Shown here: in pieces, positions 649 through 34,280 of the stretch | How positions within the stretch are numbered: the first letter of the stretch is position 1 | How the letters are laid out: the number at the start of each line of letters is the position of its first letter | DNA from: Alphaproteobacteria bacterium | GTDB taxonomy: Bacteria; Pseudomonadota; Alphaproteobacteria; Sphingomonadales; Kordiimonadaceae | NCBI GenBank assembly: GCA_013372975.1 | Contig: JABXIS010000049.1 | Span: 1-64,000, forward strand | Direction of reading: 5' to 3' | DNA length: 64,000 bases | Program-made: the position numbers and the translations under genes | The notes under the pieces: generated by a model | Seen by the model: the letters and a program-made list of their open reading frames with translations, nothing else | Database searches by the model: none | Told to the model about the DNA's origin: nothing

Positions 649-1167
649 TCAGTCGAGATCAACAATGAGCGGCTCATAGCCACAGGCCTTTATGAAGCGG
701 AGAAGGTCATCCGGCGTTATTGCGGTGGTGGCAGCATTGTGAAGCGGGTGATAGTAAAGCGGCGACTTGGCCATCATGGCTTTGTCTAGCGCAACAAGAA
801 GGGTTGGCTCTTCGCCTATGCCCGACTGCGCGTTAATGAGCGCAAAGGGGGTGACGGAGCCAGGGATCACGCCAAGCATGGATTTCAGGCTGTCTGCGCT
901 GCCGAACGACAATCGCCCCATCCCCAGCTTTTCCGAAAGGGCCTTCAGGTCTACCCTGCGGTCTTCGTCAACAACCACCAGCGCGCGCCGTTTTTTCTTG
1001 TCCCGCACAAACAGGTTTTTGCTGTGCCCGCCGCCTTTGGGCATGTGGGCACGTTCCGCCTGCGCTTCCTCAACGGTAAAGACTGGTGAGTGCCGGTATG
1101 TCTCGGTTTCGATGCTGAGCGATTCCAGAAAGCTAAACAGCTCTTCTTCCGTTTTGGGCGATTCCAT
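649..1167 (-). CDS. YbaK/prolyl-tRNA-deacylase-associated domain protein (ProX-like)
   Basis: A 172-residue protein made almost entirely of one YbaK/aa-tRNA deacylase domain of the stand-alone ProX type. Members of this family hydrolyse Ala or other wrong amino acids from tRNA-Pro in trans, complementing prolyl-tRNA synthetase editing. The signature segment GGGHSKNLFVRDKK contains the conserved lysine used in catalysis, and GVTPF-like (GSVTPFALIN) and NAATTAITPDDL segments of the family follow. A longer reading would use TTG at 1185; I prefer the ATG at 1167, which has GGGA about 8 bases upstream. It stands alone on the minus strand between the thioredoxin gene and the tRNA. Specificity for Ala-tRNA(Pro) is inferred from the family. 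Confidence 0.85.
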   Translation of the reverse strand: MESPKTEEELFSFLESLSIETETYRHSPVFTVEEAQAERAHMPKGGGHSKNLFVRDKKKRRALVVVDEDRRVDLKALSEKLGMGRLSFGSADSLKSMLGVIPGSVTPFALINAQSGIGEEPTLLVALDKAMMAKSPLYYHPLHNAATTAITPDDLLRFIKACGYEPLIVDLD

Positions 1168-1221
1168 CGTTTTTATCCCGATCAAGTCATCTATCAGAGC
1201 CTGAATATGGCATAAAAATTA

Positions 1222-1254
1222 TTTAAAAACAGTATGTTAACTGTATTTTTTAAA
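1222..1254. other. AT-rich dyad-symmetric element
   Basis: An imperfect inverted repeat, TTTAAAAACAGT then a short spacer then ACTGTATTTTTTAAA, lies between the divergent YbaK-like gene and the tRNA. The inner CAGT/ACTG arms are exact, with a spacer of six bases. It could be a regulator site or part of a promoter region. No protein can be assigned. Confidence 0.35.
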
Positions 1255-1363
1255 AAAAATAAAAAAGGTATTGCAATGGACGTGCGCATGGCTATTATCC
1301 CGCCACGCAGACGGCACTGCCGCCTGTTACCCCGCCGGCCTCTCAGGCCGGATACGCGATTGA

Positions 1364-1438
1364 GCGGGCGTAGCTCAGGGGTAGAGCACAACCTAGCCAA
1401 GGTTGGGGTCGTGAGTTCGAATCTCATCGCCCGCTCCA
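1364..1438 (+). tRNA. tRNA-Gly (anticodon GCC), CCA encoded
   Basis: All four arms fold: acceptor GCGGGCG with CGCCCGC, D arm GCTC/GAGC, anticodon stem CAACC/GGTTG and T arm GTGAG/CTCAT with TTCGAAT loop. The discriminator is U, as expected for tRNA-Gly, and CCA is encoded at 1436-1438. The seven-base anticodon loop reads TAGCCAA, giving anticodon GCC at 1396-1398. The base just before the anticodon (tRNA position 33, window 1395) is A, where nearly all tRNAs carry U. A short GC hairpin (1335-1351, CCGGCC/GGCCGG) precedes the 5' end and may mark the leader. Confidence 0.95.
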
Positions 1439-1470
1439 TCTTCTCCTTGAGAAATCAACGAGTTACAAGA

Positions 1471-1495
1471 AGCCACCGATCCGGTGGCTTTTTTG
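1471..1495 (+). terminator. Rho-independent terminator after tRNA-Gly
   Basis: AGCCACC and GGTGGCT pair around a five-base loop and are followed at once by a run of six T. It lies 33 bases after the encoded CCA and also argues against any start of the next gene upstream of about 1500. Confidence 0.85.
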
Positions 1496-1606
1496 TTTTG
1501 TGTCTTCTTTTCGCTCGAAAGGCCACAAGAACGCTTGTGCGTGTTGGCTGCTCACCCTATGGTTTGCCCAAACGATGATCACAGCAGCAATGGAGATAGA
1601 GGCGGC

Positions 1607-3556
1607 GTGACCTATCGTCCCGAAATCGAAGGGATGCGGGCAATTTCGTTGCTGGCGGCAATATTCTGCCACGCCAAATTCAGCCTGTTCAGCGGTGGCT
1701 ATGTCGGGGTTGACGTCTTTTTCGTCATCAGCGGCTATCTCATCACCCAGATTATCCTGCGGGATGAAGACCAGAAGAGATTCAGCCTGGTCTTTTTCTA
1801 TGAGAAGCGAATTCGCCGCATCGTACCGCCGCTACTGCTTGTGACGCTGGCGACATTGCCTTTCGCCTGGTTCTATATGCTGCCAACCGACATGACCGAC
1901 TTTTCAGAAAGCGTGCTGTCTGTTGTGCTGTTTTTCTCCAACATGCATTTCTGGCAGGAAAGCGGATATTTCTCCGCGGCGTCGGAATTGAAACCGCTCC
2001 TGCATACCTGGAGCCTCGGAGTTGAGGAACAGTTTTACCTTCTGTTCCCGCTGTTTCTCGTGTGGACCTGGCGGCGGGGCTTCAGGTTTTCGATAGCGGC
2101 ATCATGTGCCCTGTTCGTGGTCAGCCTCGCGGTTGCCGTCTGGGCCGTCAACAACACACCTGTGGCTGCCTTCTATCTTTTATCAACACGAATGTGGGAG
2201 CTGCTGGCCGGCTGGGGGATCGCTATCCTGCACCGTAGGGGATATATGGTGCCAGAGGGCATCACCAGCAATTTGTTGGGTGGGCTTGGGCTGACCCTGG
2301 TGGTTGTGCCGATGTTCGCTTACGATGACCTGACGCCCTTTCCGGGGATCGCAGCCCTGTCCCCCGTACTCGGTGCTGCGCTATTGCTTTTTTGCACTGC
2401 ACCGTCGACCTGGGCGCACCGGTGGCTGTCCTGCGGCCCGCTGGTCGGTCTCGGAACCATTTCCTACAGCGCCTATCTCTGGCATCAACCGCTGTTTGCC
2501 TTCAGGCGCTATGGAGGTGCGGTGGAACCTGAGCCCTGGGTCTTCCTGGGCCTGACAGGCTTGACATTGGTGCTGGCCTATATCAGCTGGCTGCTGGTGG
2601 AAAAGCCCTTCCGAAACCGCAAGCAGATGGCACGGAACAGGGTTTATTCGATCTCCGCCATCGGGGCAGTCTTGCTGATCGGCTTTGCGCTCTCAGGCAT
2701 ATTGTCCGGCGGCTTTCCGGATCGGTTTTCATTGGCACAGCAAACCATGCTGGCTAAAGCGACACCATCGCCGAAGCGGGACGAATGCCACACGGGCGGC
2801 ACCGATTATCTGGCACCGGCTAATGCCTGCACCTATTTCACCCCGACGCCGCGCTGGGCGGTGTTGGGGGACAGCCATGCGGTTGAAATCTCCTATGCCC
2901 TTGCTGACGAGTTGCGCGGGCAGGGCGACGGGGTCCTGCAGCTGTCCTTCAGCAGTTGCCCGCCCCGCTGGTCGTCCGACACGACCGATCCATGCGCGCG
3001 ATGGGTCAAGGAGGCTGTGGCGACCATCCTGGCCCGACCGGAGATCGAAAATGTGGTGCTGTCCTACCGAATGGCGTGGGCGCTACATGGCGAGCACCTG
3101 GATCATTATCCCGACCTTCCTGACGAGATACCGCCTGCCCAGCAGCAGGATGTGCTGCGTTCCTACGAGGCCATCCAGCGCACTCTGGTGGACGCGGGCC
3201 GGAATGTGGTTCTTGTGTTGCAGGCACCAGAGCTGCGTTATGGGCTGCGCAGATTGATTCGGGATACCGCCGATTTTGTCGACGGCAACATGACCAGTGT
3301 GCCCCGATCCTGGTGGCTGGCGCGTACCGCGGATATAAGCGAATGGCTCAAAGCGCTGCCTGTGCCGGTCCTGGTTGTTGACCCTGCGGATCTCTTCTGT
3401 AAGAAAGCGGTCTGTTTCGCCTCCCTCGATGGTCGGGCGCTCTATTATAACGAGGATCATATGTCATTATATGGTGCACGCCTTGTCGCCAGAGAGCTTC
3501 TCCGGCAAAGCCAGGTCCATGGCGCGTCGCTTGCGCGGGCGGGCTCGGTTCAGTAA
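1607..3556 (+). CDS. Acyltransferase-3 family with C-terminal SGNH domain (OafA-like)
   Basis: A 649-residue membrane enzyme. The first part begins YRPEIEGMRAIS, the usual opening of the acyltransferase-3 family, and holds about ten hydrophobic segments with the FFVISGYLIT signature and the RIRRI basic motif. After about residue 390 a soluble domain carries GDSH, the block I of SGNH hydrolases, and ends with NEDHMS, which supplies the Asp/His of the same fold. Such fusions O-acetylate cell-surface sugars, moving an acyl group from the cytoplasmic side to a polysaccharide. I chose the GTG at 1607 (GAGG four bases before, and GGAG further up) because the longer open frame would start inside the tRNA terminator. 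Being the first gene of the polysaccharide locus, it probably acetylates the O-antigen or capsule repeat; the substrate is not shown. Confidence 0.88.
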   Translation: MTYRPEIEGMRAISLLAAIFCHAKFSLFSGGYVGVDVFFVISGYLITQIILRDEDQKRFSLVFFYEKRIRRIVPPLLLVTLATLPFAWFYMLPTDMTDFSESVLSVVLFFSNMHFWQESGYFSAASELKPLLHTWSLGVEEQFYLLFPLFLVWTWRRGFRFSIAASCALFVVSLAVAVWAVNNTPVAAFYLLSTRMWELLAGWGIAILHRRGYMVPEGITSNLLGGLGLTLVVVPMFAYDDLTPFPGIAALSPVLGAALLLFCTAPSTWAHRWLSCGPLVGLGTISYSAYLWHQPLFAFRRYGGAVEPEPWVFLGLTGLTLVLAYISWLLVEKPFRNRKQMARNRVYSISAIGAVLLIGFALSGILSGGFPDRFSLAQQTMLAKATPSPKRDECHTGGTDYLAPANACTYFTPTPRWAVLGDSHAVEISYALADELRGQGDGVLQLSFSSCPPRWSSDTTDPCARWVKEAVATILARPEIENVVLSYRMAWALHGEHLDHYPDLPDEIPPAQQQDVLRSYEAIQRTLVDAGRNVVLVLQAPELRYGLRRLIRDTADFVDGNMTSVPRSWWLARTADISEWLKALPVPVLVVDPADLFCKKAVCFASLDGRALYYNEDHMSLYGARLVARELLRQSQVHGASLARAGSVQ

Positions 3557-5861: not shown

Positions 5862-5921
5862 GCGATGGCCCGGGTGGGCCTGGCTGTTGGTGTGTCACAC
5901 AGTATTGGAACAGATTCAGGA

Positions 5922-6944
5922 ATGACTGACGACACAAATATTACGCCGCTCTGTATCTCCGGGGCCTACTGGACCGGGGCCAGCGCGGTAGTGGATCTAC
6001 TGACCGAACATACTGATTGCGCCGTCGTGCCGGGCGAATTTTCGCTTTTCTCTTTCGGGCAGTTTTTTCAGGAAGTCTTCACCCCCCTTGCAAACGGTGA
6101 TTTTCCCGAGAAGGCGTTAGTGGCACACCGGTCGCGTATGTGCGATTTCGACCGGTCGGATCTCTATCCTTTTCGCGCTGTGGGGCGGCGCATTGGCCGA
6201 AAGTTGGGCTGGTACCCGGAACTGTTTTTCGGCCAACGCACGGGAGCTGGCAAAACGCTCGGGCCGGACTACCGGGCCAGCCGCAAGGTGCTAGACCTGA
6301 TGCTCGCCGATATTTCGGCGGCGCCGGACCAGTTTTGTGAGGCTGACCTTTCGGCGTCGGTCAAGACAGTTCTCGACCAGGCGGGACGAAGCGTTGCCGC
6401 CAGCAGCGGGCGCCCTGCGCCGCGCTACGCGGTTTTCGATCAGCTTGTGGCCCCACCGTATTTTGAGGATGCGCGCCGGGCGCTGCCGACAATGAAATAT
6501 ATCGTTGTTGATCGGGACTGGCGCGACCAATATATTTCGATGAGACCGCTCATCAAGTCCATGATGGAACGCAATCGGGCCCTTGGCGTGCGGCCGTGGG
6601 ACGAAGACGACGAGCCCATTCAGGACGATGTGGTTGAGGTGTTTTTGAAATTTAGGAAGAAGGTAGCAAATCATCTCGCCGCGCGGCAGGAAGATTCCTC
6701 TTACAATATTCTGCAGGTTCAATATGAAGAACTGGTTATGGACAATGAAACCACAACCAAGCGCATTTTTGACTTTCTAGACCTGAGTTTGCTGGATTGG
6801 TGCCCTCTAACTGTGTTTTTTAGTGAGAGGTCTAAGCTGAGAATAGGTAAGTGGAAACGACATCCTTGGTGCGACAGTGATTTGGAGCGTGATATTGATC
6901 GGCTCAAAGAGCAGCTGTCCCTGCCGCGAATTTCATTTTTGTGA
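5922..6944 (+). CDS. Sulfotransferase-like protein; candidate phosphoramidate transferase
   Basis: Not a close match to a characterised enzyme, but it looks like a sulfotransferase-fold protein. Near the N-terminus (residues 11-21) CISGAYWTGAS resembles the 5'-phosphosulfate loop of the fold, with Trp where a Lys or Arg is usual. At 193-206 MKYIVVDRDWRDQY with the following Ile-Ser fits the 3'-phosphate-binding motif (Arg and Ser). The stop overlaps the next gene's start by four bases (GTGA), so it is the first gene of the phosphoramidate operon. I chose ATG 5922 because the fold starts eight residues later; ATG 5865 would add 19 residues. The last part of the gene (from about 6660-6720) is AT-richer than its start. 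Because the CDP-amidate kinase nearby should give a PAPS-like 3'-phosphorylated donor, a sulfotransferase fold could transfer phosphoramidate. That role is inference; ordinary sugar sulfation is the alternative. Confidence 0.6.
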   Translation: MTDDTNITPLCISGAYWTGASAVVDLLTEHTDCAVVPGEFSLFSFGQFFQEVFTPLANGDFPEKALVAHRSRMCDFDRSDLYPFRAVGRRIGRKLGWYPELFFGQRTGAGKTLGPDYRASRKVLDLMLADISAAPDQFCEADLSASVKTVLDQAGRSVAASSGRPAPRYAVFDQLVAPPYFEDARRALPTMKYIVVDRDWRDQYISMRPLIKSMMERNRALGVRPWDEDDEPIQDDVVEVFLKFRKKVANHLAARQEDSSYNILQVQYEELVMDNETTTKRIFDFLDLSLLDWCPLTVFFSERSKLRIGKWKRHPWCDSDLERDIDRLKEQLSLPRISFL

Positions 6945-9391
6945 GTGGGTTATTGTGGCCCCGCCAGTTTTATTGGAGTTATTCATTGTTTAGGAGTTCA
7001 TTTGAATTTGGCACAAAGGCAGAAACACTGGACCGTCTTAGGCATGTGCTCGCAAAAAGTAAGGTGCCTGTTTCCTTAAGTTTTTGTGTAGAAAATTGGG
7101 CGCAGGACCAAGGGGTTGTTCTTGACAGCATTCAGGCAAAGTTTCCTGACAAAATGTTAATTGTTCGGTCTTCCTGCCAAGCCGAGGACGGCGCCCAATC
7201 TGGGCACGCAGGAGCCTTTCTTTCACTTCCCGATATACCGTCAAGGTCTCGTGAGGCAGTGGCAGCGGCGATCAATGACGTGATAGCCAGCTATCAGAAA
7301 GGTCAGTGTGCGGTCAGTCGCTATGATCAGGTGCTTGTTCAAGAGATGGTATCGGATGTCGCGATGAGCGGTGTTGTGTTTACGCAGGATATGAGCACCG
7401 GCGCACCATATTATGTGGTGAATTACGACGATGAAAGTGGCACAACCGACACCATCACCTCAGGGCAATACAATAATCGAACCCTGTATGTATTCAGGGA
7501 TGCCGTAGGTGAAATCAAATCGGAGAGGTTTCGATCGCTTTTTGCTGCAATACAGGAAATTGAAGTAGCCGTGTCCGACGATTGCATCGACATCGAATTT
7601 GCCCTCGATCGCATTGGCAATGTCATACTTTTTCAGGTTCGGCAAATTACCTCCCAACCTAATTGGAATCGGGGACTGACCCTCAGGATTAGGGATGAGT
7701 TAAAGCGCTCAGAAGAGTTTGTTCAGTCTCGATACGGTTACGCGCGCGGCAAGCGCGGTTCCGGAAAAGACGCTGTGCTTGGCAATATGCCAGATTGGAA
7801 TCCGGCAGAGATAATAGGCACTGCGCCAAGAAGATTAGCATTCTCACTATATAGATATCTTATCACAGACAGTATATGGAGGGTAGCGCGCGGCAAAATG
7901 GGGTACAGGGAGCGCGCCGGGCGACCATTGATGGTGGCCCTGTCCGGGCAACCGCTGATCGATGTTCGGGAAAGCTTCTATTCATACATCCCTGCTGATG
8001 TTGATGGTCAAATTGCTGACAAGTTGGTGATCAGTTGGTTATCCCGGTTGCGGAAAAACCACCATCTCCATGACAAGGTTGAGTTTGCGGTTGCCACTAC
8101 TTGCTACAGTTTTGACTTCGAGGAACGGGTGTCTGAGCAGTTCCCCCACGCGCTGGCCCCTGAAGAGTTGGCTAAATACAAAACTAGTCTGAAAAAACTG
8201 ACAGATAAGCTTGTAAAAGGCGAACGGGCGCCGATCAAACAACAGCTTTCGATCGTCGACGGGCTGGCGGATCGGTATCTCGATCATATGTTTGATCGGG
8301 CGGACCCAAGTCTTGAACTGCTATCACTGTTGCTGGAGGATGCGTTAAACTCCGGCACCCTGCCGTTTTCCATATTGGCTCGGCACGGTTTCATAGCAAC
8401 TACCTTGCTAAAATCCATGGTGAAAGCTGATGCCCTGTCGCAGCAACAGGCGGAAGCTTTCCAGAGATCAGTACCGACCGTAGCTTCTGATTTTCTATGT
8501 GATGTGCTGTTGCTACAGAGTGGCAAGTTGCCAGAGCAGGACTTTTTCAGGAAATATGGGCATTTGCGACCAGGAACATATGATATTCTTTCGCTTCGTT
8601 ACGATCAACGAAAGTCAGCGTTCGACGCGAATAGTTTCCCTCGCAAAGAGGAGACTGAACCGCCTTACTTCAGCCTATCGGAGGGACAGAAGAAAAAGAT
8701 ACAATCATTGATCGACGACCATGGCTTGACTTTTTCTGTAGATCAGCTTTTTAACTATATGCGAGAGGCGATTCAGGCAAGGGAATATGCGAAGTTTATC
8801 TTTACAAAGAATCTGAGCGCAGCACTGGAGTTGATCGCTGCTTGGGGCAAGAATCACGGGCTTAGCAGGGAAGAGCTCTCGCATCTAGATATCCGCGAAA
8901 TCCTAGACTGCCAGGTGTGTCCGACTGGTCGGACGCTGGAAAGCCATCTCAGGGACAAAAGCATCGCCGGTGAGAATGCTTATATGGCCACAACAGCCGT
9001 CAGGCTTCCATTCCTGATTACCGAACTGTCTGATCTGTTTATCATACCGCTTTCCGTTGACAGCCCAAATTTCATTACCCGCAAAAATGTGGATGGAGAA
9101 GTAGTGGTTGTGAGTGGCGAGGATTGTGACCCTGTCATTCTGGACAATAAAATCGTTGTCATTGAAAGTGCGGATCCTGGCTTTGATTGGATATTTTCCC
9201 GGCCAATACTTGGTTTAGTGACAAAATTTGGTGGTGCGAATTCTCACATGGCGGTTAGGTGCGCGGAATTTGATATTCCGGCAGCAATCGGTTGTGGAGA
9301 GCAGATATTCCAGCGAGTCACCAGAAGTGCCCAGATTGATTTGCGTTGTGCGGAAGGCCAGATCAAGTTTGTCCAGGAACATTATTCGTGA
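6941..9391 (+). CDS. L-glutamine kinase (PEP-synthase-like; C. jejuni Cj1418 type)
   Basis: An 816-residue protein with the three-part plan of PEP synthase and pyruvate phosphate dikinase. The N-terminal nucleotide-binding part shows MLIVRSSCQAED...GHAGAF (about 72-93) and VLVQEMVSDVAMSGVVF (about 129-146). The C-terminal swivelling domain has GGANSHMAVRCAEF with the phosphorylated His769 and IPAAIGCG after it. No C-terminal TIM-barrel pyruvate domain follows, so it is not PpsA. In C. jejuni, Cj1418 of this architecture phosphorylates the amide nitrogen of L-glutamine with ATP, the first step of phosphoramidate synthesis. The assignment rests on architecture plus the three following genes, which match the next three enzymes. 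Starts with GTG overlapping the previous stop. AT-richer than the flanking polysaccharide genes. Confidence 0.82.
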   Translation: MSGLLWPRQFYWSYSLFRSSFEFGTKAETLDRLRHVLAKSKVPVSLSFCVENWAQDQGVVLDSIQAKFPDKMLIVRSSCQAEDGAQSGHAGAFLSLPDIPSRSREAVAAAINDVIASYQKGQCAVSRYDQVLVQEMVSDVAMSGVVFTQDMSTGAPYYVVNYDDESGTTDTITSGQYNNRTLYVFRDAVGEIKSERFRSLFAAIQEIEVAVSDDCIDIEFALDRIGNVILFQVRQITSQPNWNRGLTLRIRDELKRSEEFVQSRYGYARGKRGSGKDAVLGNMPDWNPAEIIGTAPRRLAFSLYRYLITDSIWRVARGKMGYRERAGRPLMVALSGQPLIDVRESFYSYIPADVDGQIADKLVISWLSRLRKNHHLHDKVEFAVATTCYSFDFEERVSEQFPHALAPEELAKYKTSLKKLTDKLVKGERAPIKQQLSIVDGLADRYLDHMFDRADPSLELLSLLLEDALNSGTLPFSILARHGFIATTLLKSMVKADALSQQQAEAFQRSVPTVASDFLCDVLLLQSGKLPEQDFFRKYGHLRPGTYDILSLRYDQRKSAFDANSFPRKEETEPPYFSLSEGQKKKIQSLIDDHGLTFSVDQLFNYMREAIQAREYAKFIFTKNLSAALELIAAWGKNHGLSREELSHLDIREILDCQVCPTGRTLESHLRDKSIAGENAYMATTAVRLPFLITELSDLFIIPLSVDSPNFITRKNVDGEVVVVSGEDCDPVILDNKIVVIESADPGFDWIFSRPILGLVTKFGGANSHMAVRCAEFDIPAAIGCGEQIFQRVTRSAQIDLRCAEGQIKFVQEHYS

Positions 9392-10062
9392 CCTTGATTA
9401 TAGCCATAACACAGCGCGAGGTTGAAAACGATACCTATCCCGATGATCGGGACGCCCTTTCTCAGGACTGGACTCTTTATTTGGAGAAGATTTTCCCCGG
9501 GTCAGTGTTGCTGCCAATTCCAAACAGGATCAAGGATGTTCGACAATGGATAGAAGCTGTCGATCCAGGCCTTTTGATCCTATCAAACGGGAATGACTGG
9601 GGCACTGCTCCGTATCGTGATGCGCTGGAAACCAGTCTTGTGGATTTTGCGGCAAAAAAAAGTATTCCGACATTGTTTGTCTGTAGGGGGCTACAGGTTT
9701 TGAGCGCCTTGCAAGGCAATCGCCTTGAGGCTGATATAGCGAAAGTAACGAATGAAAACCACGTTGCGGCAATGCATGACGTCAAAATTTCAGGCGGTTT
9801 TTTCAGGAAACTCGCCGGTGGTGATGTAGTGACTGTGAACAGCTACCACAATCAGGGAGTACTGGTGTCAGAGTTGCGCGGCGAGAGTGGCTTGATGCCT
9901 TTTGCGTGGACTGATGGCGGCATCTTGGAAGGGTGTGTACATGTTCGGCATCCATTTCTGGCTTTACAATGGCACCCTGAACGGGGGGGCGGTAATACAG
10001 AATTGGATTTAAGGCTAATCACTCTTCTTGTCGAAGAAGGGGCATTTTGGAACAATGAATAA
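9388..10062 (+). CDS. Gamma-glutamyl-CDP-amidate hydrolase (class I amidotransferase fold; Cj1417 type)
   Basis: A 224-residue class I glutamine amidotransferase-fold hydrolase. The nucleophile elbow is FVCRGLQ (Cys99), and the catalytic pair is in QWHPE (His196, Glu198); NSYHNQG at 151-157 is the substrate loop seen in gamma-glutamyl hydrolases. In C. jejuni, Cj1417 of this family releases glutamate from gamma-glutamyl-CDP-amidate to leave cytidine diphosphoramidate. The GTG start at 9388 overlaps the preceding TGA; a longer open frame begins at 9346 but lies inside the kinase gene. A three-copy decamer repeat spans the stop codon and the next start. No synthase domain is fused to it, so it is a free hydrolase rather than an ammonia-channelling subunit. 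Confidence 0.82.
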   Translation: MTLIIAITQREVENDTYPDDRDALSQDWTLYLEKIFPGSVLLPIPNRIKDVRQWIEAVDPGLLILSNGNDWGTAPYRDALETSLVDFAAKKSIPTLFVCRGLQVLSALQGNRLEADIAKVTNENHVAAMHDVKISGGFFRKLAGGDVVTVNSYHNQGVLVSELRGESGLMPFAWTDGGILEGCVHVRHPFLALQWHPERGGGNTELDLRLITLLVEEGAFWNNE

Positions 10063-10080
10063 CAATGAATAACAATGAAA
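10051..10080 (+). repeat. Three tandem copies of a decamer at a stop/start junction
   Basis: AACAATGAAT occurs three times in a row (the last base of copy three is A). The hydrolase stop codon TAA (10060-10062) and the cytidylyltransferase ATG (10065-10067) lie in the second copy boundary. Copy number therefore sets the spacing between the two genes. Confidence 0.85.
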
Positions 10081-10838
10081 TTCAGGGCCTGATATTGGCG
10101 GCGGGTAGGGGGAGCAGGCTTCTCAGCATGACGGATGATCGTCCGAAGGGGCTTGTGGAATTGAATGGCCATGCACTTGTGGAGTGGCAGATTGCCAGCC
10201 TAGAGAACGCAGGTGTTCAAAACACCACAATTGTTACGGGCTATCTTGGGCATAAGTTTGAACGCTTCGGCCTTTCGACCGTTTCTAATCCAGATTGGAA
10301 TAAGACCAACATGGTTGGGAGCTTGATGTGCGCTTTTGAGGAGGTGAAAGGTCCGGTTCTGATCAGCTACTCAGATATTGTTTATCGCCCTGAGTTGGTA
10401 GCCAGTTTGCTTGAATGTTCGGCAGACGTAGCGATTTCCTATGATCCTGATTGGCTCGAACTTTGGCAGCGCCGATTTGACGATCCATGTGAGGATGCCG
10501 AGAGTTTTAGGATTGGTGATGACGGATACATCACTGAGATTGGGAAAAGAGTCGCTGATCCGATGGAAGTGCAAGGCCAGTTTATGGGACTCATTAAACT
10601 TTCGGAAAAAGGCGTAAGCTTGGTGACTGACATGGTCCTCTCGAAGCCGGAATACCGGTCCAAATTGGATATGACGAGCCTTTTGAACTTGTTGATAGAA
10701 GCGGGTGTGAAAGTAAAAGGTGTTCCGGCGAACGGACACTGGTGTGAAGTGGATGATCAGGCAGACTTGAAGGTTGCACAGGCGTTGGTTAAGGAGGGTA
10801 GGCTGGTTTTGCAAGCTAGAGGAGGCCGTGCAACATGA
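10065..10838 (+). CDS. Phosphoglutamine cytidylyltransferase (Cj1416 type)
   Basis: A 257-residue nucleotidyltransferase. LILAAGRGSRL (residues 9-19) with RPKGL following is the nucleotide-binding signature of the sugar-phosphate/choline-phosphate cytidylyltransferase superfamily; YSDIVY gives the metal-binding Asp104, NPDWNKTNM (75-83) resembles the choline-phosphate cytidylyltransferase loop, and EVDDQADL near the end supplies the second acidic site. In C. jejuni, Cj1416 of this family joins CTP and phosphoglutamine to form gamma-glutamyl-CDP-amidate. It begins three bases after the preceding stop and its own stop overlaps the next ATG. A sugar-phosphate or phosphocholine substrate would be the alternative reading if it stood alone; its neighbours argue for phosphoglutamine. 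Confidence 0.82.
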   Translation: MNNNEIQGLILAAGRGSRLLSMTDDRPKGLVELNGHALVEWQIASLENAGVQNTTIVTGYLGHKFERFGLSTVSNPDWNKTNMVGSLMCAFEEVKGPVLISYSDIVYRPELVASLLECSADVAISYDPDWLELWQRRFDDPCEDAESFRIGDDGYITEIGKRVADPMEVQGQFMGLIKLSEKGVSLVTDMVLSKPEYRSKLDMTSLLNLLIEAGVKVKGVPANGHWCEVDDQADLKVAQALVKEGRLVLQARGGRAT

Positions 10839-11365
10839 TTGTCTGGTTGATCGGTATGTCTGGAGCCGGAAAATCGGAGATCGGGCGACAACTGTACAGG
10901 CAAATGAAAGCGAAAAACCCGGCTACAGTTTTTGTAGATGGGGACGAAATCCGCGAAGTTTTTCGAACAGACCAGTCAGAAGCAGACTATTCAATCGAAG
11001 GTCGACGCAGGAATGCAGATCGAATTCAGGCCATTTGTAAATGGCTTGAGAGCCAGAATATTGACGTGGTCTGTTGTGTATTGTCGATATTCCCAGAAAG
11101 TTTAGGGTGGAATCGGGAAAACTTTTCAGATTATTTTGAGGTGTTTGTTGATGCGCCTATGGATGATCTAGTAGAGCGGAATCCAAAAAATCTGTATCGT
11201 CTCGCCATCGAAGGAAAGATGAAGAATGTGGTGGGGGTGGATATCGAGTTTGTACCCCCGGCCAACCCGGATATGACTTTCCTGAATGGTCGCCCATTTC
11301 GTTCTGCACAGGAGATGGCCGCTGAAATAATGCAGCAGCTCGAGAAAAGGAAAAGAGTTGAGTAG
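10835..11365 (+). CDS. Cytidine diphosphoramidate kinase (APS-kinase-like; Cj1415 type)
   Basis: A 176-residue P-loop kinase of the adenylylsulfate kinase family, with GMSGAGKS at residues 7-14, the DGDEIR segment at 31-36 and a lid region rich in Arg. No ATP sulfurylase is nearby, so sulfate activation is unlikely. In C. jejuni, Cj1415 of this family phosphorylates the ribose 3' position of cytidine diphosphoramidate, giving a PAPS-like activated donor. The ATG overlaps the previous TGA (ATGA) and its stop overlaps the next TTG start by eight bases. It completes the set of four known phosphoramidate enzymes in the same order (Cj1418-1415). Confidence 0.82.
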   Translation: MIVWLIGMSGAGKSEIGRQLYRQMKAKNPATVFVDGDEIREVFRTDQSEADYSIEGRRRNADRIQAICKWLESQNIDVVCCVLSIFPESLGWNRENFSDYFEVFVDAPMDDLVERNPKNLYRLAIEGKMKNVVGVDIEFVPPANPDMTFLNGRPFRSAQEMAAEIMQQLEKRKRVE

Positions 11366-11939
11366 TCTTTATTCCTATGCAAGTGGCGACCTGCTCAACA
11401 GCCGTAACACTTATGCATACTCCCCCTTTCATGGTGATGCTTTTTTGGCGGCTTGGCGGGCAGAAAGGTCTCGAGTATTGGAATCGCTTCCTGCGGCTCT
11501 TGCCAAAAAACGTGCCGTATCTGTTGAAGCGGTTGCGATCACGGGCTTTCCGCTGCGAACTGGTGCATTGATAGAATATTTAAGGACAGCCTTGGACGCA
11601 GATAATCTGGACAAAAATGATTTGCGGTTCATTGACTGGCTGATCCAGCGTTTTGAAGTTACCAAAAGGGTGCATGAGTCCTATGGCCTGGATGGCCTGT
11701 CAGAAGACAAATCCAAATATCACGATAAGGAACTATATGTTGCCTACGCAGAACTTATGTCAGAAATGTATAACGCTACGCACCGCTTGGATGTTTTCAA
11801 TGTTCTGCTGAAGGTAATGGACACATTGTGCTCGTTTGCACCTGCGCTTTCCGTCGAGCAACAATGCCGACTGGGGAGGTTGATCCTGGATGAACGGCAG
11901 TTTTTTGAATATTTGCAGCGGAAGGTTTCGAAGCAGTGA
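11358..11939 (+). CDS. Unrecognised protein in the phosphoramidate operon
   Basis: I do not recognise this 193-residue protein. It is soluble, mostly helical in appearance, with no signal peptide, membrane segment or metal cluster. It opens SLYSYASGDLLNSRNTYAYS and has a charged middle (EDKSKYHDKELY near 120) and a leucine-rich C-terminal third. The start is TTG at 11358 with AAGGA about 8 bases upstream, overlapping the kinase stop; there is no in-frame ATG until deep in the protein. The stop overlaps the next gene's GTG (GTGA). Its tight coupling on both sides implies it works with the phosphoramidate enzymes, perhaps as a partner or transferase accessory; this is inference. Confidence 0.7.
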   Translation: MSSLYSYASGDLLNSRNTYAYSPFHGDAFLAAWRAERSRVLESLPAALAKKRAVSVEAVAITGFPLRTGALIEYLRTALDADNLDKNDLRFIDWLIQRFEVTKRVHESYGLDGLSEDKSKYHDKELYVAYAELMSEMYNATHRLDVFNVLLKVMDTLCSFAPALSVEQQCRLGRLILDERQFFEYLQRKVSKQ

Positions 11940-12673
11940 CTCATTTATCTGATGTCGTCTTTTTAGCTGCAGACACTATCAGGTCGCGTGCTTATGCACA
12001 GGCACTTTCCCACGCAGGCTTGACAGTTGATCGCATTCTTCTAGTGCGGGCGGCAGGTAACAAACGTTGGGGTCAGGCAAATGATATTGTCTCAGGCAAT
12101 ACAGACTTTGGCAGTTTGTTTGTGCCTGATCTAAATCAAGACCTTGGGGCTACCTGTTCAAAGATTTCAAAAAATGTAGAAATATTGCAAACGGCTTCTA
12201 TCAATGTGCCCGAAGTAGTTGAGTGGCTTAAAAGATATGCGCCAAAGTTGGTGATTTTTTCCGGGTTTGGTGGAGAGTTGGTGCAACCGGGTGTTCTTTG
12301 TGCAGCAGGCCCGCTGTTGCATATGCATTCTGGTTGGCTCCCTGATTACCGTGGAAGCACTACACTTTATTATAGTTACCTAAACGAGCGAAGTGCTGGT
12401 GTATCAGCCATTTTTCTTTCGGAAGAAATCGACACAGGTCGGATTATCTCCAGGAAGAAGTATCCTGTTCCACCTAAACGTGCTGATTTGGACTATTACT
12501 ATGATTCGGTAATCCGAGCGGACCTTCTGGTAGAAACAATGGGGCTTTATGACTCAGCTAGCGGAACTTTCAAAAGCTGTGTCGGGAAACAGGTTGAGGC
12601 TGCCGGGCGAGTATATTACATAATTCATCCTGTCCTAAAGCATCTTGTTCTCAATGATGTCAATCAGGATTGA
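11936..12673 (+). CDS. Formyltransferase-fold protein with altered active-site Asn
   Basis: A 245-residue protein with the methionyl-tRNA/sugar formyltransferase core. LLHMHSGWLPDYRGSTT (127-143) aligns with the INVHGSLLPxxRG motif, and EEIDTG gives the catalytic Asp166. His131 matches the conserved His, but the Asn of the Asn-His-Asp triad is replaced by His129. No C-terminal tRNA-binding domain follows. Such enzymes N-formylate amino sugars with 10-formyl-tetrahydrofolate, or have diverged. It is the last gene of the operon, starting with GTG over the previous stop. A role in modifying either an amino sugar or the phosphoramidate is possible; which one is not shown. Confidence 0.7.
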   Translation: MTHLSDVVFLAADTIRSRAYAQALSHAGLTVDRILLVRAAGNKRWGQANDIVSGNTDFGSLFVPDLNQDLGATCSKISKNVEILQTASINVPEVVEWLKRYAPKLVIFSGFGGELVQPGVLCAAGPLLHMHSGWLPDYRGSTTLYYSYLNERSAGVSAIFLSEEIDTGRIISRKKYPVPPKRADLDYYYDSVIRADLLVETMGLYDSASGTFKSCVGKQVEAAGRVYYIIHPVLKHLVLNDVNQD

Positions 12674-25755: not shown

Positions 25756-27399
25756 TTGTCGAGCCTGCAGAAACTAGGCCGCTTTATGCGGACGGTGGCA
25801 CCATTAAGGTCGGCGCAGATCACCAATCGGTTGATGCGCCGGGTGTTTCGACCCAAGCCATCCCAGCCCATGTTGCTGCCGCTCAGGGGCCTTGGCAACC
25901 TCGACTTTATGCCCGGGCATGAATCTCCGCTTGTGTCCGGGACGACCTTCCGTTTCCTGAACCGGGAAGAAACTCTGTCCTTTCCTGCGGACTGGGACAA
26001 TGAAGATCTGCCGCTTCTGTGGCGCTACAACCTGCATTATTTCGATGCCCTGATGGCACCCGATCTGGCCTGCCAGGAAAAGGCCTCGCTGGTCACCCGC
26101 TGGATCGAGGAAAATCCAACCGACATCAATGTGGGGTGGGACCCCTACCCGCTGTCGCTCAGGATTGTCAATTGGGTGAAATGGTTCCTGCAGGGCAATG
26201 AACCGACCACGGAGATGCTTGAAAGCCTGTACCAACAGGCCGACTTCCTCGAGCACACAGTTGAATTTCACCTGTTGGGCAATCATTTGCTGGAGAATGC
26301 CAAGGCACTCCTGTTTGCCGCTAGCTATTTCGAAGGTCCGCATGCCCTGCGCTGGCTGGATCTGGCTGTGCCGGTCCTTCAGGCTGAACTGGAGGAGCAA
26401 ATCCTGGCCGATGGGGCGCATTTCGAACTGTCGCCCATGTATCACTCCATCATGCTCGAGCTCGTGTTGGATCTGATTGTCCTGGCGCGCGCCGAAAAGA
26501 CCCCTGTGGACGTCAAGGCGCTTCTGCCGCTCCTGACAGAAAAGGCCAGGTCGATGGCTGACTGGCTGTCGGGGATGGTGCATCCGGACGGCGAGATCTC
26601 CTTTTTCAACGACGCGAGCATCGGGATCGCCAAGGCGCCAGCCCTGCTGCTGGCCGAGACCGCCAAGCTGACCGGCTGGTCACCGCCTGCGGCCCAATCA
26701 GTGCAGCATTTCAAGGCCAGTGGCTACATGCGGGCGGAAAAAGGGCCCGCTGTGCTCTTTTTCGATGCGGCAGCGATTGGGCCGTCTTATCTGCCGGGCC
26801 ATGGCCATGCAGACGCACTGTCACTAGAGCTGTCGCTGTTTGGACAGCGGGTCATCACCAATGTTGGCACGTCGGAATATGGCTTGGGCGAGCGTCGCGA
26901 ATATGAGCGCAGCACACCCGCCCATTCAACCGTTACCATCGGAGGCGAAAATTCGTCGGAAACCTGGGCCGGGTTCCGCGTTGGACGCCGGGCCAGGATC
27001 ATTCGAGCCAACTCTGCCGATACGTCGGTTGCTGCCACGCTTGAAGGCGCCCATGACGGCTATCGATACATGCCCGGCAAACCAGTCCATGCGCGGACAG
27101 CCGTCCTTACGGCCGACAGCCTGACAATCAGGGACACGGTTACAGTGACCGGTGCGAAGGCTGTATCGCGTTTCCATTTTCATCCCGATGTCGCGCTGGT
27201 CTGTCATGACGGCGGCACAAGCGGGACGCTGACGCTTCCTTGTGGAAAGGTGATCGACTGGACGGCCGCGGCTGAAAGCGTCAGCCTGGAGCCGTTTCTC
27301 TATGCTGAACACTTCGGCGTCCTGCGCCCAACCCAGACCCTATGCCTGAACAGTCATTCTCAGGAGACTTCAGAGCTCCGGCTGCACTGGCGGCAATGA
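25756..27399 (+). CDS. Heparinase II/III-family protein in the O-antigen locus
   Basis: A 547-residue protein. An alpha/alpha barrel (residues about 60-300; FHLLGNHLLENAKAL contains the Asn/His typical of the family) is followed by a beta-sandwich (PGHGHADALSLEL to about 540), the heparinase II/III layout. A TTG at 25756 with AGGGAG nine bases upstream is the start; no ATG exists earlier. No signal peptide is evident, so a periplasmic lyase role is not obvious. It follows the bidomain oxidoreductase and precedes a WbuB-type glycosyltransferase, the usual neighbourhood in which its function is still unclear. Confidence 0.85.
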   Translation: MSSLQKLGRFMRTVAPLRSAQITNRLMRRVFRPKPSQPMLLPLRGLGNLDFMPGHESPLVSGTTFRFLNREETLSFPADWDNEDLPLLWRYNLHYFDALMAPDLACQEKASLVTRWIEENPTDINVGWDPYPLSLRIVNWVKWFLQGNEPTTEMLESLYQQADFLEHTVEFHLLGNHLLENAKALLFAASYFEGPHALRWLDLAVPVLQAELEEQILADGAHFELSPMYHSIMLELVLDLIVLARAEKTPVDVKALLPLLTEKARSMADWLSGMVHPDGEISFFNDASIGIAKAPALLLAETAKLTGWSPPAAQSVQHFKASGYMRAEKGPAVLFFDAAAIGPSYLPGHGHADALSLELSLFGQRVITNVGTSEYGLGERREYERSTPAHSTVTIGGENSSETWAGFRVGRRARIIRANSADTSVAATLEGAHDGYRYMPGKPVHARTAVLTADSLTIRDTVTVTGAKAVSRFHFHPDVALVCHDGGTSGTLTLPCGKVIDWTAAAESVSLEPFLYAEHFGVLRPTQTLCLNSHSQETSELRLHWRQ

Positions 27400-29311: not shown

Positions 29312-30331
29312 TCAATGGCGGGATCGCCGGGCGGTACGGTTTTTGAGAAACGCGCGACCTGATTGTTCGATAGCCTCCGCGACGCGGTCCGGAGCCTGGA
29401 AGCCGAACGTATCGGTAAAACGCGTTGCATCGATCAACAGCTCGCCGAAAAGCCCTGACATTTGGCGTCTTCGGCCCGCCAGTGTGCCAAGGGCGACAAG
29501 CAGGCCCGTCGGGACGGGCAAGAGGCCGGCGCCGCGCCCCATGCCGTGGCGCAGTGCCTTGATCACATCCCTGAGTGCCAGCGCGGGTGACCCTGTTATT
29601 AGATAATTGCCGGAAAGGCCTGGATCGGGCGGCGTCTCGCACAGGTGCGCTATGGCGTTTGCCAGGGTCTCAAGGTCGATGACGCTGCGCCGGTTGCGGG
29701 CCAAGCCGAAAGGGAGCGGCAGGCCAGTTGCGGCCAGTCTTTGCAAGAGCGCCCAGTTGCCCCGGGCCGCTGCACCCACAATCAGTGGCGGACGCAAGGA
29801 TACCGCAAGAGCCTCACGATTTTCTGCGAACGCCTGCACATGGCCTTCTGCCGCGCGCTTGGACCGGGCGAAAGGCGTCTGGGGCGAAAGGTCCGTCCGG
29901 TCGTCAATAACTATGCTCACGCTATTGGGGGCAATGGCTGCGACACTGCTCAAATGGATGAACCGCTTGGCGCCGGCTTTTTGGGCTGCTGCCGCCAGGT
30001 TGGCTGTGGCTTGGGCGTTGGACCGCATGAAAGCGTCTTCTTCAGGCTGACCGGACAGAATATGGCCCAGCCCGGCCAGATGCACGACGGTTTGGACTCC
30101 CTGCATCGCTTCGTCGAGGGGCGTATCATCGGCAAGATCGCCTGTCTCGAAGACGTCAGTATTCGGAAGCGAGGCAAGCGCAGGATCGACACGGCCCTGG
30201 TCGCGCACCGCGAGACGGAGCGGATGGCCGCAGCGGGCAAGCACAGGTGCGACAAAGGAGCCGACGAACCCCGTGGCACCGGTCAGCAGGATGCGGTGGT
30301 TGCTTGCGTCAGGATTTGACGGCCTGTCCAC
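29312..30331 (-). CDS. SDR-family nucleotide-sugar reductase/epimerase, catalytic Tyr replaced by Phe
   Basis: A 339-residue extended short-chain dehydrogenase. GATGFVG at 18-24 is the NAD(P) site and LSSV near 128 the active-site Ser region. The YxxxK motif reads FARSK, so Phe154 replaces the catalytic Tyr while Lys158 is kept; the codon is TTC. By position beside the initiating transferase it resembles WbpV/WreQ enzymes, which reduce the 4-keto sugar to UDP-QuiNAc. The missing Tyr makes activity uncertain. It overlaps the end of wecC by 23 bases. Confidence 0.82.
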   Translation of the reverse strand: MDRPSNPDASNHRILLTGATGFVGSFVAPVLARCGHPLRLAVRDQGRVDPALASLPNTDVFETGDLADDTPLDEAMQGVQTVVHLAGLGHILSGQPEEDAFMRSNAQATANLAAAAQKAGAKRFIHLSSVAAIAPNSVSIVIDDRTDLSPQTPFARSKRAAEGHVQAFAENREALAVSLRPPLIVGAAARGNWALLQRLAATGLPLPFGLARNRRSVIDLETLANAIAHLCETPPDPGLSGNYLITGSPALALRDVIKALRHGMGRGAGLLPVPTGLLVALGTLAGRRRQMSGLFGELLIDATRFTDTFGFQAPDRVAEAIEQSGRAFLKNRTARRSRH

Positions 30332-31559
30332 GCCAGATCCCCCTTGTGTCGATCAGGACCTTCTCAGCCAGAATGTCGGCCGGGATCTGTTTGAACGGCT
30401 TGTGATCGACAAGCAGCACCAGGATATCGGCCTCTGCCAGAGCGGTTTCCGTGTCCACGAGGTCAATGTTGCGGCCCACCATGCTTTCAGGCAGCTCCTC
30501 GATATTAGGCTCGACGGCCATCAGGCGCCCCGAAAGGCGGTCCGCCAGTGTGCTGGTGATTTCAAGTGCCGGGCTTGAGCGGAGGTCGTCAATGTCGGGT
30601 TTGAAGGCCAGGCCGAAACAGGCCACCTTCGGTCCCTTGAAGCGATCGGCGGCGGCAAGAACCTTCGCGACCACGGTATGTGGCTTGCTGTCATTCACTT
30701 CACGTGCCGTGCGGATCAGCCGGGCTTCCTCAGGCGCTGCGCCTACGATGAACCAGGGGTCCACTGCGATACAGTGGCCCCCGACTCCGGGGCCGGGCTG
30801 GAGGATATTCACGCGCGGGTGACGGTTCGCCAGTGAAATCAGCTCCCAGACATCAATGTCCAGCCGATCGGCGATCAGCGACAGTTCGTTGGCGAAGGCG
30901 ATATTGACATCGCGAAAGGCGTTTTCGGACAATTTCGCCAGTTCGGCCGTCCGGGCATTGGTGCGAACGCAACTTCCCTTGACGAAAATTTCATAGAGCG
31001 CCTGAGCCTTGAGCGCACAGGCGTCTGTGATGCCGCCGATAATTCGGTCATTTTCTACCAGTTCGATCAGAACCCGGCCCGGCAGGACCCGCTCCGGGCA
31101 GTGGGCAACATGATAGCGCGTGCCGCACGTGCCCTTGAGGTCCGGGCGGACTTCTTCGATCCAGGCAACCATCTGGTCGGTTGCCCCCGGTGGGACGGTC
31201 GATTCAAGCACGATCAGGTTGCCGTCGCGGATGAAGGGCGCGATCGAGCGGGTCGCCGCCTCGACATAGCTGACATCGGGCTTGTAGCCTTCGGTGAAAG
31301 GCGTTGGCACTGCGATAATGAAGGCATCTGCTTCGGCAGGTGTCGTTTGCGCCCTGAGACTGCCGTTCGAGACAACGCCCTGCAGCAGGCCGTCGAGATC
31401 GACTTCCACGATATGGGCCTTGCCGGAATTGATGATGTCGACCGCGCGCTGATTGACATCAACACCGGTCACCTTGAGGCCAGCGCGTGCGAACACGGCG
31501 GCGGTCGGAAGGCCGATATAACCGAGGCCGAGAACACAAAGCGAATTAAAGTGAGACAT
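30309..31559 (-). CDS. wecC: UDP-N-acetyl-D-mannosamine dehydrogenase
   Basis: A 416-residue UDP-sugar 6-dehydrogenase closely patterned on E. coli Wec[16 protein letters not shown] at the start, [23 protein letters not shown] with the catalytic Cys, and a C-terminal SSPALEI region. It oxidises UDP-ManNAc to UDP-ManNAcA with two NAD+. It overlaps wecB by 14 bases (upstream) and the SDR gene (downstream). Together with wecB it would supply ManNAcA for the O-antigen; it might also feed the WbpB route. Confidence 0.93.
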
Positions 31560-32667
31560 GACTAATCACTTTCAGAATTTGGCTGGCCGCGGTGCCGTCG
31601 CCATAGGGGTTATGGGCCGTTGCCATCGATTGATAGTGGGACGCATCTTGCAGGAGCGCCGTCGCTTCCGACAGGATGCGGTCCGGGTCGGTGCCCACTA
31701 GCTTCACAGTCCCTGCGGATACCGCCTCCGGGCGTTCTGTGGTATCGCGCATCACAAGCACAGGCTTGCCCAGTGAGGGCGCTTCCTCTTGAACGCCTCC
31801 GGAATCCGTCAGGATGATATGGCTGCGGTTCATCAGATAGACAAAGCTTGGATAATCCTGGGGCGCAATCAGATGGATGTTGCGCTGACCGCTGAGGCGG
31901 GCCTCGACCGGACCTTTCACGTTCGGGTTCAGGTGCACGGGATAGAGGATCTCGCAGTCGTCGCGTTGCGCCAGATTGGCGATTGCGCTGCAAATATTCT
32001 CGAAGCCCTGGCCGAAGCTTTCGCGCCGGTGACCGGTCACCAGAATCAGTTTCTTGCCAGGGTCGAGAAAGTCGAATTGTCGCTCGAACGCGTCAACGGT
32101 GGCCGCGTCCCCAAGAATACGGTCGCGTGCCAGGAAAAGTGCGTCGACGACCGTGTTGCCCGTAACAAAGATCCGGTCCGCAGCGATATTTTCCTGCAAC
32201 AGATTTTGCCGCGCCTGCTCGGTCGGCGCGAAACAAAGGGCCGAAAGGCCATCCGTGATCAAACGGTTTGCCTCTTCAGGCCAAGGCGAATAGAGGTCGT
32301 GGGTCCGGAGGCCCGCCTCAACATGGCCAATAGGAATTTTCTGGTAATAGGCGGCCAGGGATGCCGACATGGTGGTGTTGGTGTCGCCATGTACCAGCAC
32401 CATATCGGGTTTTTCGGTCTCAAGAATCTCGGTCAGGCCAGTCAGAATCCGTGCTGTTACATCCGCCAGCCCCTGGGCCGCTTTCATGACATCCAGATCA
32501 TGGTCCACGCGGATATCGAAGAAGCTCATCACCTGGTCCAGCATGTCCCGGTGTTGGCCCGTCACGCACACCTTGTTGTCGATATCCGGTGCCGCTTCGA
32601 ACGCCTTGACCACGGGCGCCATCTTGATCGCTTCCGGGCGGGTACCAAATATCTGAAGAATTTTCAT
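31546..32667 (-). CDS. wecB: UDP-N-acetylglucosamine 2-epimerase (non-hydrolysing)
   Basis: A 373-residue enzyme matching WecB throughout: [42 protein letters not shown] and [19 protein letters not shown]. It converts UDP-GlcNAc to UDP-ManNAc. First gene of the minus-strand group wecB-wecC-SDR-phosphoglycosyl transferase, and divergent from the ligase gene. An AAGAG ribosome site precedes its ATG. Confidence 0.96.
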
Positions 32668-32849: not shown

Positions 32850-34280
32850 GTGAGCCGGTGTCGGACAATAGGGTGTTTCAAGCGTCAAGACTTTGCTATG
32901 AAAGCGGTACCTGATTGGCACTTCTTAAAAAGAGCGAAAGGCACAGACGACCCTATGTTGCGGTTTCTGATATTCTTTCTGTTGGCCCTGTCGCCGCTTC
33001 CACTGGCGAGTGCCCGTCCTATATGGCAATGGACCTGGGTCTGCGTCATCGCCTTGATGACGCTGGTCTTGTGTATCCGGACCCTTCGTACGCGACTACC
33101 CGAGATGCCCGGACTGATGCGCTGGGCCATAGGACTTGTTGGCGGTTTTATCGTCTGGGGCTTTGTGCAGGCGTGGTTACCGGTCGGACATTTTGTCGAT
33201 GTTGGCGCGTTGAGTGCCGAAGGGATGGTGCCAGGGGTGCTGTCCGTCAACCCATCGGCCACGCTGGCGGTTAGTCTCTATTTTCTGGCCCACCTGTTGT
33301 TTTTCATATGCGTGTTTGTGACCTGCCGGCGCGAGCAGGACCCGGCACGCTTTGTCCGCAATCTCGGAATCATTGTAGCGCTTTATGCGCTATACGGGTT
33401 CGCGGTGTTCGTGACCGGAAACAAATACATCCTCTGGTTCGAGAAATGGGCAAACCCCGAATATCTCACCGCAACCTTCGTCAACAGGAACAGTTTCGCG
33501 GCCTATGCAGGGCTCGGACTATTGTGTTTGCTAACACACGCCCACACACAGATGCGTACGAATTCGATCAACAACATCGAGGATTTGGTCCATGTTTTCA
33601 CGCGGGTTTGGTGGCTCCCGGTTTCCATTCTTCTCGTAACCTTCTCACTGATGCTGACCGGATCACGTGCTGGCTTCATATCGGTGGCGCTCGGCGTGGC
33701 GACACTGCTCCTCTTGAATATTTTGGGTGGCCGGGGGGAGCGTACGTGGCAACGGAAGAAACTTATCAGCGCGGTAGCCATAACCGTGGCAGCTATTGGT
33801 ATCTTCTCCTTCAGCAGCGATGACCTTGGCGACCGGTTGTCGGTCGGTGTTGGCAATGATGCCCGCCTGGCTGTATACCCGCTTGTCGTTGATGCCATCG
33901 CTGACCAGCCGGCGGCGGGATTTGGTCTCGGGACATTTGAGGAAAGCTTCCGGATTTACCGCACCAGCACCATTCGCGACCTGTATTTCGACCGCGGCCA
34001 CAATGACTATCTGGAGCTCGCCATGACCGCGGGCATCCCGGCCGCGCTTGTATTGCTGCTGGCTTTCGCGATGGCTGCACTTGTCTTGTGGCGCGGCTGG
34101 CGACACTCACGATCCATGGGGCCCTATATCGCGCCGGGTCTTGCGGCCATGGTGCAGCTGGCGGCCCATTCGCTGGTCGATTTCTCGCTCCAGATGCCCG
34201 CAGTTTCCTATCTTTGGGTGGCGGTGATTGCAGTCAGCCTGGCAGCCGCAACCAAGCGAAACGAACCCCGCGGGGCTTGA
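32850..34280 (+). CDS. O-antigen ligase-like membrane protein (WaaL/Wzy-C family)
   Basis: A 476-residue multi-helix membrane protein with the Wzy_C signatures: TATFVNRNSFAAYAGLGL, MLTGSRAG and a periplasmic RGHNDYLEL segment (His). It would join the finished polysaccharide to lipid A-core in the periplasm; the same family includes polymerases. The frame opens with GTG at 32850 just after GGAGG (three bases spacing, slightly short); ATG 32898 or 32955 are alternatives, and the first helix begins at about residue 36. It is divergent from wecB and convergent with the TPR-like gene. Confidence 0.85.
   Translation: MSRCRTIGCFKRQDFAMKAVPDWHFLKRAKGTDDPMLRFLIFFLLALSPLPLASARPIWQWTWVCVIALMTLVLCIRTLRTRLPEMPGLMRWAIGLVGGFIVWGFVQAWLPVGHFVDVGALSAEGMVPGVLSVNPSATLAVSLYFLAHLLFFICVFVTCRREQDPARFVRNLGIIVALYALYGFAVFVTGNKYILWFEKWANPEYLTATFVNRNSFAAYAGLGLLCLLTHAHTQMRTNSINNIEDLVHVFTRVWWLPVSILLVTFSLMLTGSRAGFISVALGVATLLLLNILGGRGERTWQRKKLISAVAITVAAIGIFSFSSDDLGDRLSVGVGNDARLAVYPLVVDAIADQPAAGFGLGTFEESFRIYRTSTIRDLYFDRGHNDYLELAMTAGIPAALVLLLAFAMAALVLWRGWRHSRSMGPYIAPGLAAMVQLAAHSLVDFSLQMPAVSYLWVAVIAVSLAAATKRNEPRGA

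Follow-up and report, generated by a model that had tools for sequence, protein, structure and literature searches.

Genes at the locus

Positions 6941 to 11365 of the window, by which we mean the whole 64,000-nucleotide stretch of DNA analyzed here, carry four open reading frames exactly where an earlier note had placed them (Table 1). As that note had also claimed, their order is that of their presumed relatives Cj1418, Cj1417, Cj1416, and Cj1415. The gene at 5865 overlaps the kinase gene, its stop and the kinase start sharing a GTGA (6941 to 6944), a second GTGA forms the kinase/hydrolase junction (9388 to 9391), and an ATGA (10835 to 10838) is common to the cytidylyltransferase and APS-kinase-like genes. 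The hydrolase and cytidylyltransferase genes are separated by a 2-nucleotide gap (10063 to 10064). The four-gene cassette is real, but the operon-like unit reaches past 11365, its next two genes following with overlaps as far as 12673. Because of the GTGA at the kinase/hydrolase junction, the hydrolase probably starts at GTG 9388 rather than at TTG 9346, and with this start the proposed Cys99/His196/Glu198 residues were reproduced. The predicted swivel His769 of the kinase was likewise found; in Pfam, this protein matched PPDK_N and the PEP-utilizer mobile domain alone, without a hit to a pyruvate barrel.

Table 1. Predicted features of the phosphoramidate cassette region
Feature	Position	Strand	Evidence or remark
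PAPS-sulfotransferase-family protein (Sulfotransfer_3), predicted phosphoramidate transferase	5865..6944	+	PF13469
L-Glutamine kinase relative (Cj1418 family, PRK05849)	6941..9391	+	NF004508, swivel His769, NSHM motif
Gamma-glutamyl-CDP-amidate hydrolase relative (Cj1417 family)	9388..10062	+	NF045546 best match, tree, WHPER signature, Cys99/His196/Glu198
Phosphoglutamine cytidylyltransferase relative (Cj1416 family)	10065..10838	+	NTP_transf_3, full-length alignment, tree
CDP-amidate kinase relative (Cj1415 family; Kin)	10835..11365	+	NF004041, P-loop at residue 7, tree, alignment
u193, small helical protein without named family	11358..11939	+	TTG start listed, true start may differ
Formyltransferase-fold protein, HxH from residue 129	11936..12673	+	PF00551, 42.8 bits

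The six genes from 6941 to 12673 have a GC content of 45 to 49%, while their neighbors are at 55 to 58%, and given this composition they look as if they had been acquired as one unit. The neighboring genes encode an acyltransferase, a PglF/WbpM-type dehydratase, Gfo/Idh, hexapeptide, and DegT proteins, as well as HisH/HisF/amidotransferase proteins, a flippase, and Wzy-like proteins. These neighbors identify a surface polysaccharide locus; the more specific designation of O-antigen locus goes beyond the sequence, on the basis of which an O-antigen cannot be distinguished from a capsule or another polysaccharide.

Several other genes of the window deserve mention. Between 12771 and 18289 lie genes resembling wbpB, wbpD, wbpE and hisH2, hisF2, wbpG, a set that presumably specifies an acetamidino-substituted 2,3-diamino uronic acid. 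A Heparinase II/III-like protein is encoded within the polysaccharide locus at 25756 to 27399, after two Gfo/Idh-type oxidoreductase genes, a wecB/wecC-like pair (UDP-GlcNAc 2-epimerase and UDP-glucose/GDP-mannose-type dehydrogenase) is found on the minus strand at 30312 to 32667, and a second Wzy_C protein is encoded at 32850 to 34280.

Grouping of the four proteins with the Campylobacter cassette families, with weak deep support for two

The window kinase matched NF004508 (PRK05849, NCBIfam) over its full length with 879 bits, well above the curated cut-off of 501. The C. jejuni kinase scored 1127 bits with this model, whose top scorers are Campylobacter kinases (1106 to 1175 bits), and the hydrolase adjoining the C. 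jejuni kinase passed the gamma-glutamyl-CDP-amidate hydrolase model NF045546 (325 bits, cut-off 250). Taken together, these matches tie PRK05849 to Cj1418. Against PDB sequences, the only match of the window kinase was the mobile domain of PEP synthase. The window hydrolase did not reach the NF045546 equivalog cut-off of 250, scoring only 68 bits, yet this was the best of all NCBIfam models, as it was for the cassette hydrolases, which score 65 to 122 bits outside Campylobacter and 315 to 325 bits within it. Kin exceeded the cut-off of NF004041 (PRK05541 subfamily; 149.8 bits, cut-off 127), a model that NCBIfam names adenylyl-sulfate kinase, and the cytidylyltransferase matched NTP_transf_3 in Pfam.

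Identity to the C. jejuni proteins was 33.7% over 774 columns for the kinase, 28.5% for the hydrolase, 34.5% over 238 columns for the cytidylyltransferase, and 33.5% for Kin, whereas the values for PpsA, PuuD, and CysC were 24% (201 columns), 21%, and 23.5%, respectively. His769 is invariant among 15 kinase relatives, as is the NSHM motif. In nearly all cassette hydrolases the active-site motif ends in HPER (HxER in Campylobacter), while others have HPEW, HPES, HPEL, or similar; the window hydrolase reads LSNGND where most relatives have LSGGND. Kin carries DGDE at residue 35, the place where APS kinases (CysC proteins) have DGDN.

As outgroups for the trees we used the PpsA, PuuD, and CysC proteins of E. 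coli, together with paralogues encoded by the same genomes. All four window proteins sit in cassette clades, and every PpsA, PuuD, sugar nucleotidyltransferase, and CysC protein fell outside these clades; the grouping that the earlier note had named as its own refutation was not seen. Support for the separating branch was 0.84 for the kinase (FastTree) and 82 for Kin, 54 for the hydrolase, and 45 for the cytidylyltransferase (ultrafast bootstrap). Deep branch support is thus moderate or weak, and it is weak for the hydrolase and the cytidylyltransferase. Nevertheless, the order of the genes, the alignment over full length, and the signature residues are all in agreement with the cassette assignment. 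The canonical readings as PpsA, PuuD, sugar nucleotidyltransferase, and CysC were not favored by the tree and residue comparison. Overall, the assignment to the families of Cj1415 to Cj1418 is supported, less firmly so for the hydrolase and the cytidylyltransferase, the four proteins aligning and grouping with the Campylobacter cassette proteins and agreeing in active-site and signature residues, and the reading of 6941 to 11365 as a cassette encoding their relatives is supported at the level of sequence.

Proposed pathway

Reaction order and intermediates are taken here from published Campylobacter work, our own data being limited to family membership and linkage. By this analogy, the 6941 to 9391 product would phosphorylate the amide nitrogen of glutamine at the expense of ATP, the cytidylyltransferase would join the phosphoglutamine to CTP, and the hydrolase would cleave off the glutamate, yielding CDP-amidate. 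A 3'-phosphate would then be added by the APS-kinase-like enzyme, giving 3'-phospho-CDP-amidate, a cytidine counterpart of PAPS. From this donor, we propose, the sulfotransferase-family protein encoded at 5865 to 6944 would transfer the phosphoramidate to one of the sugars in the polysaccharide that the locus produces. We consider it likely that the four genes make 3'-phospho-CDP-amidate and that the upstream protein transfers phosphoramidate to the locus polysaccharide, with the reservation that activity, transfer, acceptor, and product are all inferred. In some Campylobacter harboring these genes, MeOPN was not seen by NMR (PMC3907429), indicating that the genes alone are no proof of the product.

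Alternatively, the genes could serve a P-N or nucleotide pathway that is related to this one yet distinct from it, acting on another amide or amine and yielding something other than CDP-phosphoramidate. The low identity to the C. jejuni proteins (28 to 34%), the hydrolase score below the equivalog cut-off, and a formyltransferase-like gene outside the Campylobacter core set leave some room for this. However, the set is full and ordered as in Campylobacter, the kinase is above its cut-off, and active-site and signature residues are conserved, and we therefore judge such a pathway improbable.

An upstream sulfotransferase relative and the proposed transfer step

The 359-amino-acid protein encoded at 5865 to 6944 matched PF13469 with 47.5 bits (cut-off 27) and had no DUF2972 match; no match to it was found among PDB sequences. 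To see how often such a gene lies near the kinase, we used 16 Pseudomonadota genomes with the kinase, taking Polysacc_synt_2 loci in the same genomes as controls. A sulfotransferase match was present within 5 kb in 10 of 17 kinase loci but in only 1 of 24 control loci (Fisher P = 1.5e-4), and when only matches above the Pfam cut-off were counted, 8 of the 17 kinase loci remained (P = 0.0017). Two Pseudomonadota loci (L043 and L046) have the kinase and an adjoining sulfotransferase-type gene with no hydrolase, cytidylyltransferase, or Kin gene within 6 kb; the other genes may lie elsewhere.

In Campylobacterota cassettes, the place of the sulfotransferase is taken by a family that includes DUF2972 proteins. 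This domain is found in Cj1421 and Cj1422, which are known from genetics to be MeOPN transferases (PMC5808241), and it had no match among the proteins scanned around the window cassette (1484 to 32667). An AlphaFold2 model of a Helicobacter relative of a DUF2972 protein (7 sequences, mean pLDDT 72, pTM 0.71) gave structural alignments whose best 50 PDB entries were all sulfotransferases (Z 8.4 to 11.4), although Foldseek returned no match for it under an E value of 0.001. Profile comparison by hhalign of sulfotransferases with DUF2972-related proteins gave an E value of 2e-4, with a probability of only 45%, over the RDP motif. On the strength of this model, we predict a sulfotransferase fold for the Campylobacterota family to which the MeOPN transferases belong. 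In the C. jejuni record we used, a 346-amino-acid protein (L117, 975 to 2015) is encoded directly upstream of the APS-kinase-like gene; it had no Pfam match over the cut-off, and its N-terminal GTTNSG and later FRDTLGYLNS resemble sulfotransferase motifs.

The product of Cj1415 is CDP-phosphoramidate 3'-phosphate (PMC11800397), a 3'-phosphorylated donor, so that a PAPS-like donor and a transferase with a sulfotransferase fold would, by inference, fit together. This offers a possible explanation of why Cj1415 adds a 3'-phosphate, in that the transferases resemble sulfotransferases, which bind a 3'-phosphorylated nucleotide. Recent enzymology papers still refer to the transfer step as future work (PMC12409886), and among the openly accessible papers searched we found none linking MeOPN with a sulfotransferase.

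The gene at 5865 to 6944 has a GC content of 54.8%, like the flanks and unlike the 45 to 49% block, and for this reason it may be a local enzyme. A plain PAPS role is not excluded either, as the gene lies outside the block by composition and the genome contains many other sulfotransferases and, on another contig, a separate APS kinase domain. A rival reading is a sulfation locus, in which Kin makes PAPS, the upstream protein sulfates the polysaccharide, and the other three genes serve another purpose. The NCBIfam name of Kin, the PF13469 match, and the wealth of sulfotransferases in the genome would be in keeping with it. Nevertheless, we saw no sulfate adenylyltransferase gene beside the APS-kinase-like gene, the genome has an APS kinase domain elsewhere, Kin lacks DGDN and groups with the Campylobacter cassette kinases, and its gene accompanies that of the glutamine kinase in different phyla. 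A sulfation locus thus seems quite unlikely, and phosphoramidate transfer remains our preferred reading.

Two additional genes belong to the module

The pair of genes at 11358 to 12673 has the low GC content of the cassette and is found next to it again in different phyla; the module is thus larger than first noted. No Pfam or NCBIfam match was found for u193, and a fold search with its helical model gave no Foldseek match under an E value of 0.001 and a best Z of 7.4. It occurs in 2 of 398 Pseudomonadota genomes (a third match, with stops and an E value of 1e-3, was left out) and in 6 of 298 Campylobacterota genomes, and every one of these genomes carries the kinase. In Campylobacterota, the probability of this association by chance was 1e-4, rising to 0.002 when the two genomes that had supplied seed sequences were left out; in three of the six Campylobacterota genomes, the pair of u193 and formyltransferase-like genes lies on a contig other than that of the kinase. 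u193 also occurs as a fusion protein, joined to Kin in L048, to the cytidylyltransferase in L222, and in L221 to the formyltransferase-like protein.

Homologues of the formyltransferase-like protein are present in 14 of 80 cassette loci, distributed over Pseudomonadota, Helicobacter, SAR11, Bacteroidota, Nomurabacteria, and archaea. The canonical formyltransferase motif is NxH; in these homologues, HxH is conserved. In two Campylobacterota genomes (G614 and G568), formyltransferase-like paralogues and a u193-like gene also occur away from the kinase and near repeated "MGFYKEDY" genes (L224, 7144 to 11053, with three paralogues, and L223, 4281 to 5464).

The pair probably acts in one-carbon transfer to the phosphoramidate, the nucleotide carrier, or the sugar acceptor, which is the weakest part of our interpretation. 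More speculatively, u193 and the formyltransferase-like protein could form a two-part one-carbon-transfer enzyme that caps the phosphoramidate with a group other than O-methyl, the whole module representing a general PAPS-like system for glycan phosphoramidylation, with sulfotransferase-fold transferases, in bacteria and archaea. We offer this as a tentative hypothesis that may well prove wrong.

The cassette is widespread outside Campylobacter

Matches to NF004508 above the cut-off were found in 67 of 298 Campylobacterota genomes and in 15 of 398 Pseudomonadota genomes (about 4%). Of 60 genomes of near relatives, just two have the kinase, the one that contains the window and another of the same family, and the cassette was absent from the 19 other genomes of the genus that were searched. 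This absence and the low-GC block could suggest a horizontally acquired cassette that is decayed or silent, but with all ORFs intact, catalytic residues present, and tight overlaps we find this hardly credible.

A pattern scan of named genomes recovered the C. jejuni record, other Campylobacter, Helicobacter, SAR11, and Prochlorococcus, as well as Bacteroidetes, Clostridium, Legionellales, and archaeal loci. The kinase is also found on plasmids of Azospirillum, Roseovarius, Cupriavidus, and Vibrio, where it is named, for example, PEP-utilizing enzyme. Indeed, loci elsewhere carry generic names such as this one or peptidase C26, and automatic names do hide the cassette, as had been suspected. 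The locus had further been presented as far from Campylobacter; this is true, but the cassette is widespread and the window is not exceptional in having it. No DNA-level match to an Aeromonas kinase gene was found in E. coli. A glutamine kinase relative with 34% identity (H15) is encoded at 682 to 3006 of MT837632.1, a 9.5-kb unannotated fecal "Bacteriophage sp." record that probably represents DNA of the host or a small mobile segment.

Counting gene sets only in the 31 loci flanked on either side by 4.5 kb or more, we found that hydrolase and cytidylyltransferase genes accompany the kinase in 28 and that all four genes are present in 18. Together with the NF004508 score of 879 bits, the 28 of 31 loci indicate that the gene set in the window is more than a chance arrangement. 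A 2022 review described the glutamine kinase as C. jejuni specific (PMC9561416), a label at odds with a cassette present in about 4% of the sampled Pseudomonadota genomes. Since the cassette is seen in marine, soil, gut, and archaeal lineages, glycan phosphoramidate becomes testable as a general modification.

Comparison with known systems

The window shares with the C. jejuni MeOPN cassette Cj1415 to Cj1418 (PMC11800397, PMC3907429) the four enzyme families, the kinase-hydrolase-cytidylyltransferase-kinase order, the catalytic residues, and the setting in a surface polysaccharide locus. However, at 28 to 34% identity, it lacks adjoining Cj1419/Cj1420-type methyltransferase genes and a DUF2972 transferase and adds an upstream Pfam-recognized sulfotransferase relative, as well as u193 and the formyltransferase-like gene in the same low-GC block. 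The C. jejuni record used for comparison is not NCTC 11168, and in it the APS-kinase-like gene is upstream of the methyltransferase genes and not after the cytidylyltransferase gene; in C. volucris, the kinase, hydrolase, cytidylyltransferase, and APS-kinase-like genes follow each other in the window order. Cj1421 and Cj1422 (DUF2972; PMC5808241) and the 5865 to 6944 protein share the PAPS sulfotransferase fold, by prediction for the DUF2972-related proteins and by Pfam for the window protein, but belong to different subfamilies, only the latter matching Sulfotransfer_3 directly.

MeOPN has been described as identified, until now, in Campylobacter alone (PMC6429109). The lipooligosaccharide of Xanthomonas campestris (PMC8042644) carries a phosphoramide as well, on a Gram-negative surface glycan outside Campylobacter, but on the core oligosaccharide; it is the one known product relative that we found. 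Finally, PAPS synthesis by CysC and its use by sulfotransferases offer a parallel in logic, with a nucleotide donor phosphorylated at the 3' position, a kinase of the P-loop type, and a transferase of the sulfotransferase fold, except that in the window cytidine and phosphoramidate would replace adenosine and sulfate and that DGDE replaces DGDN.
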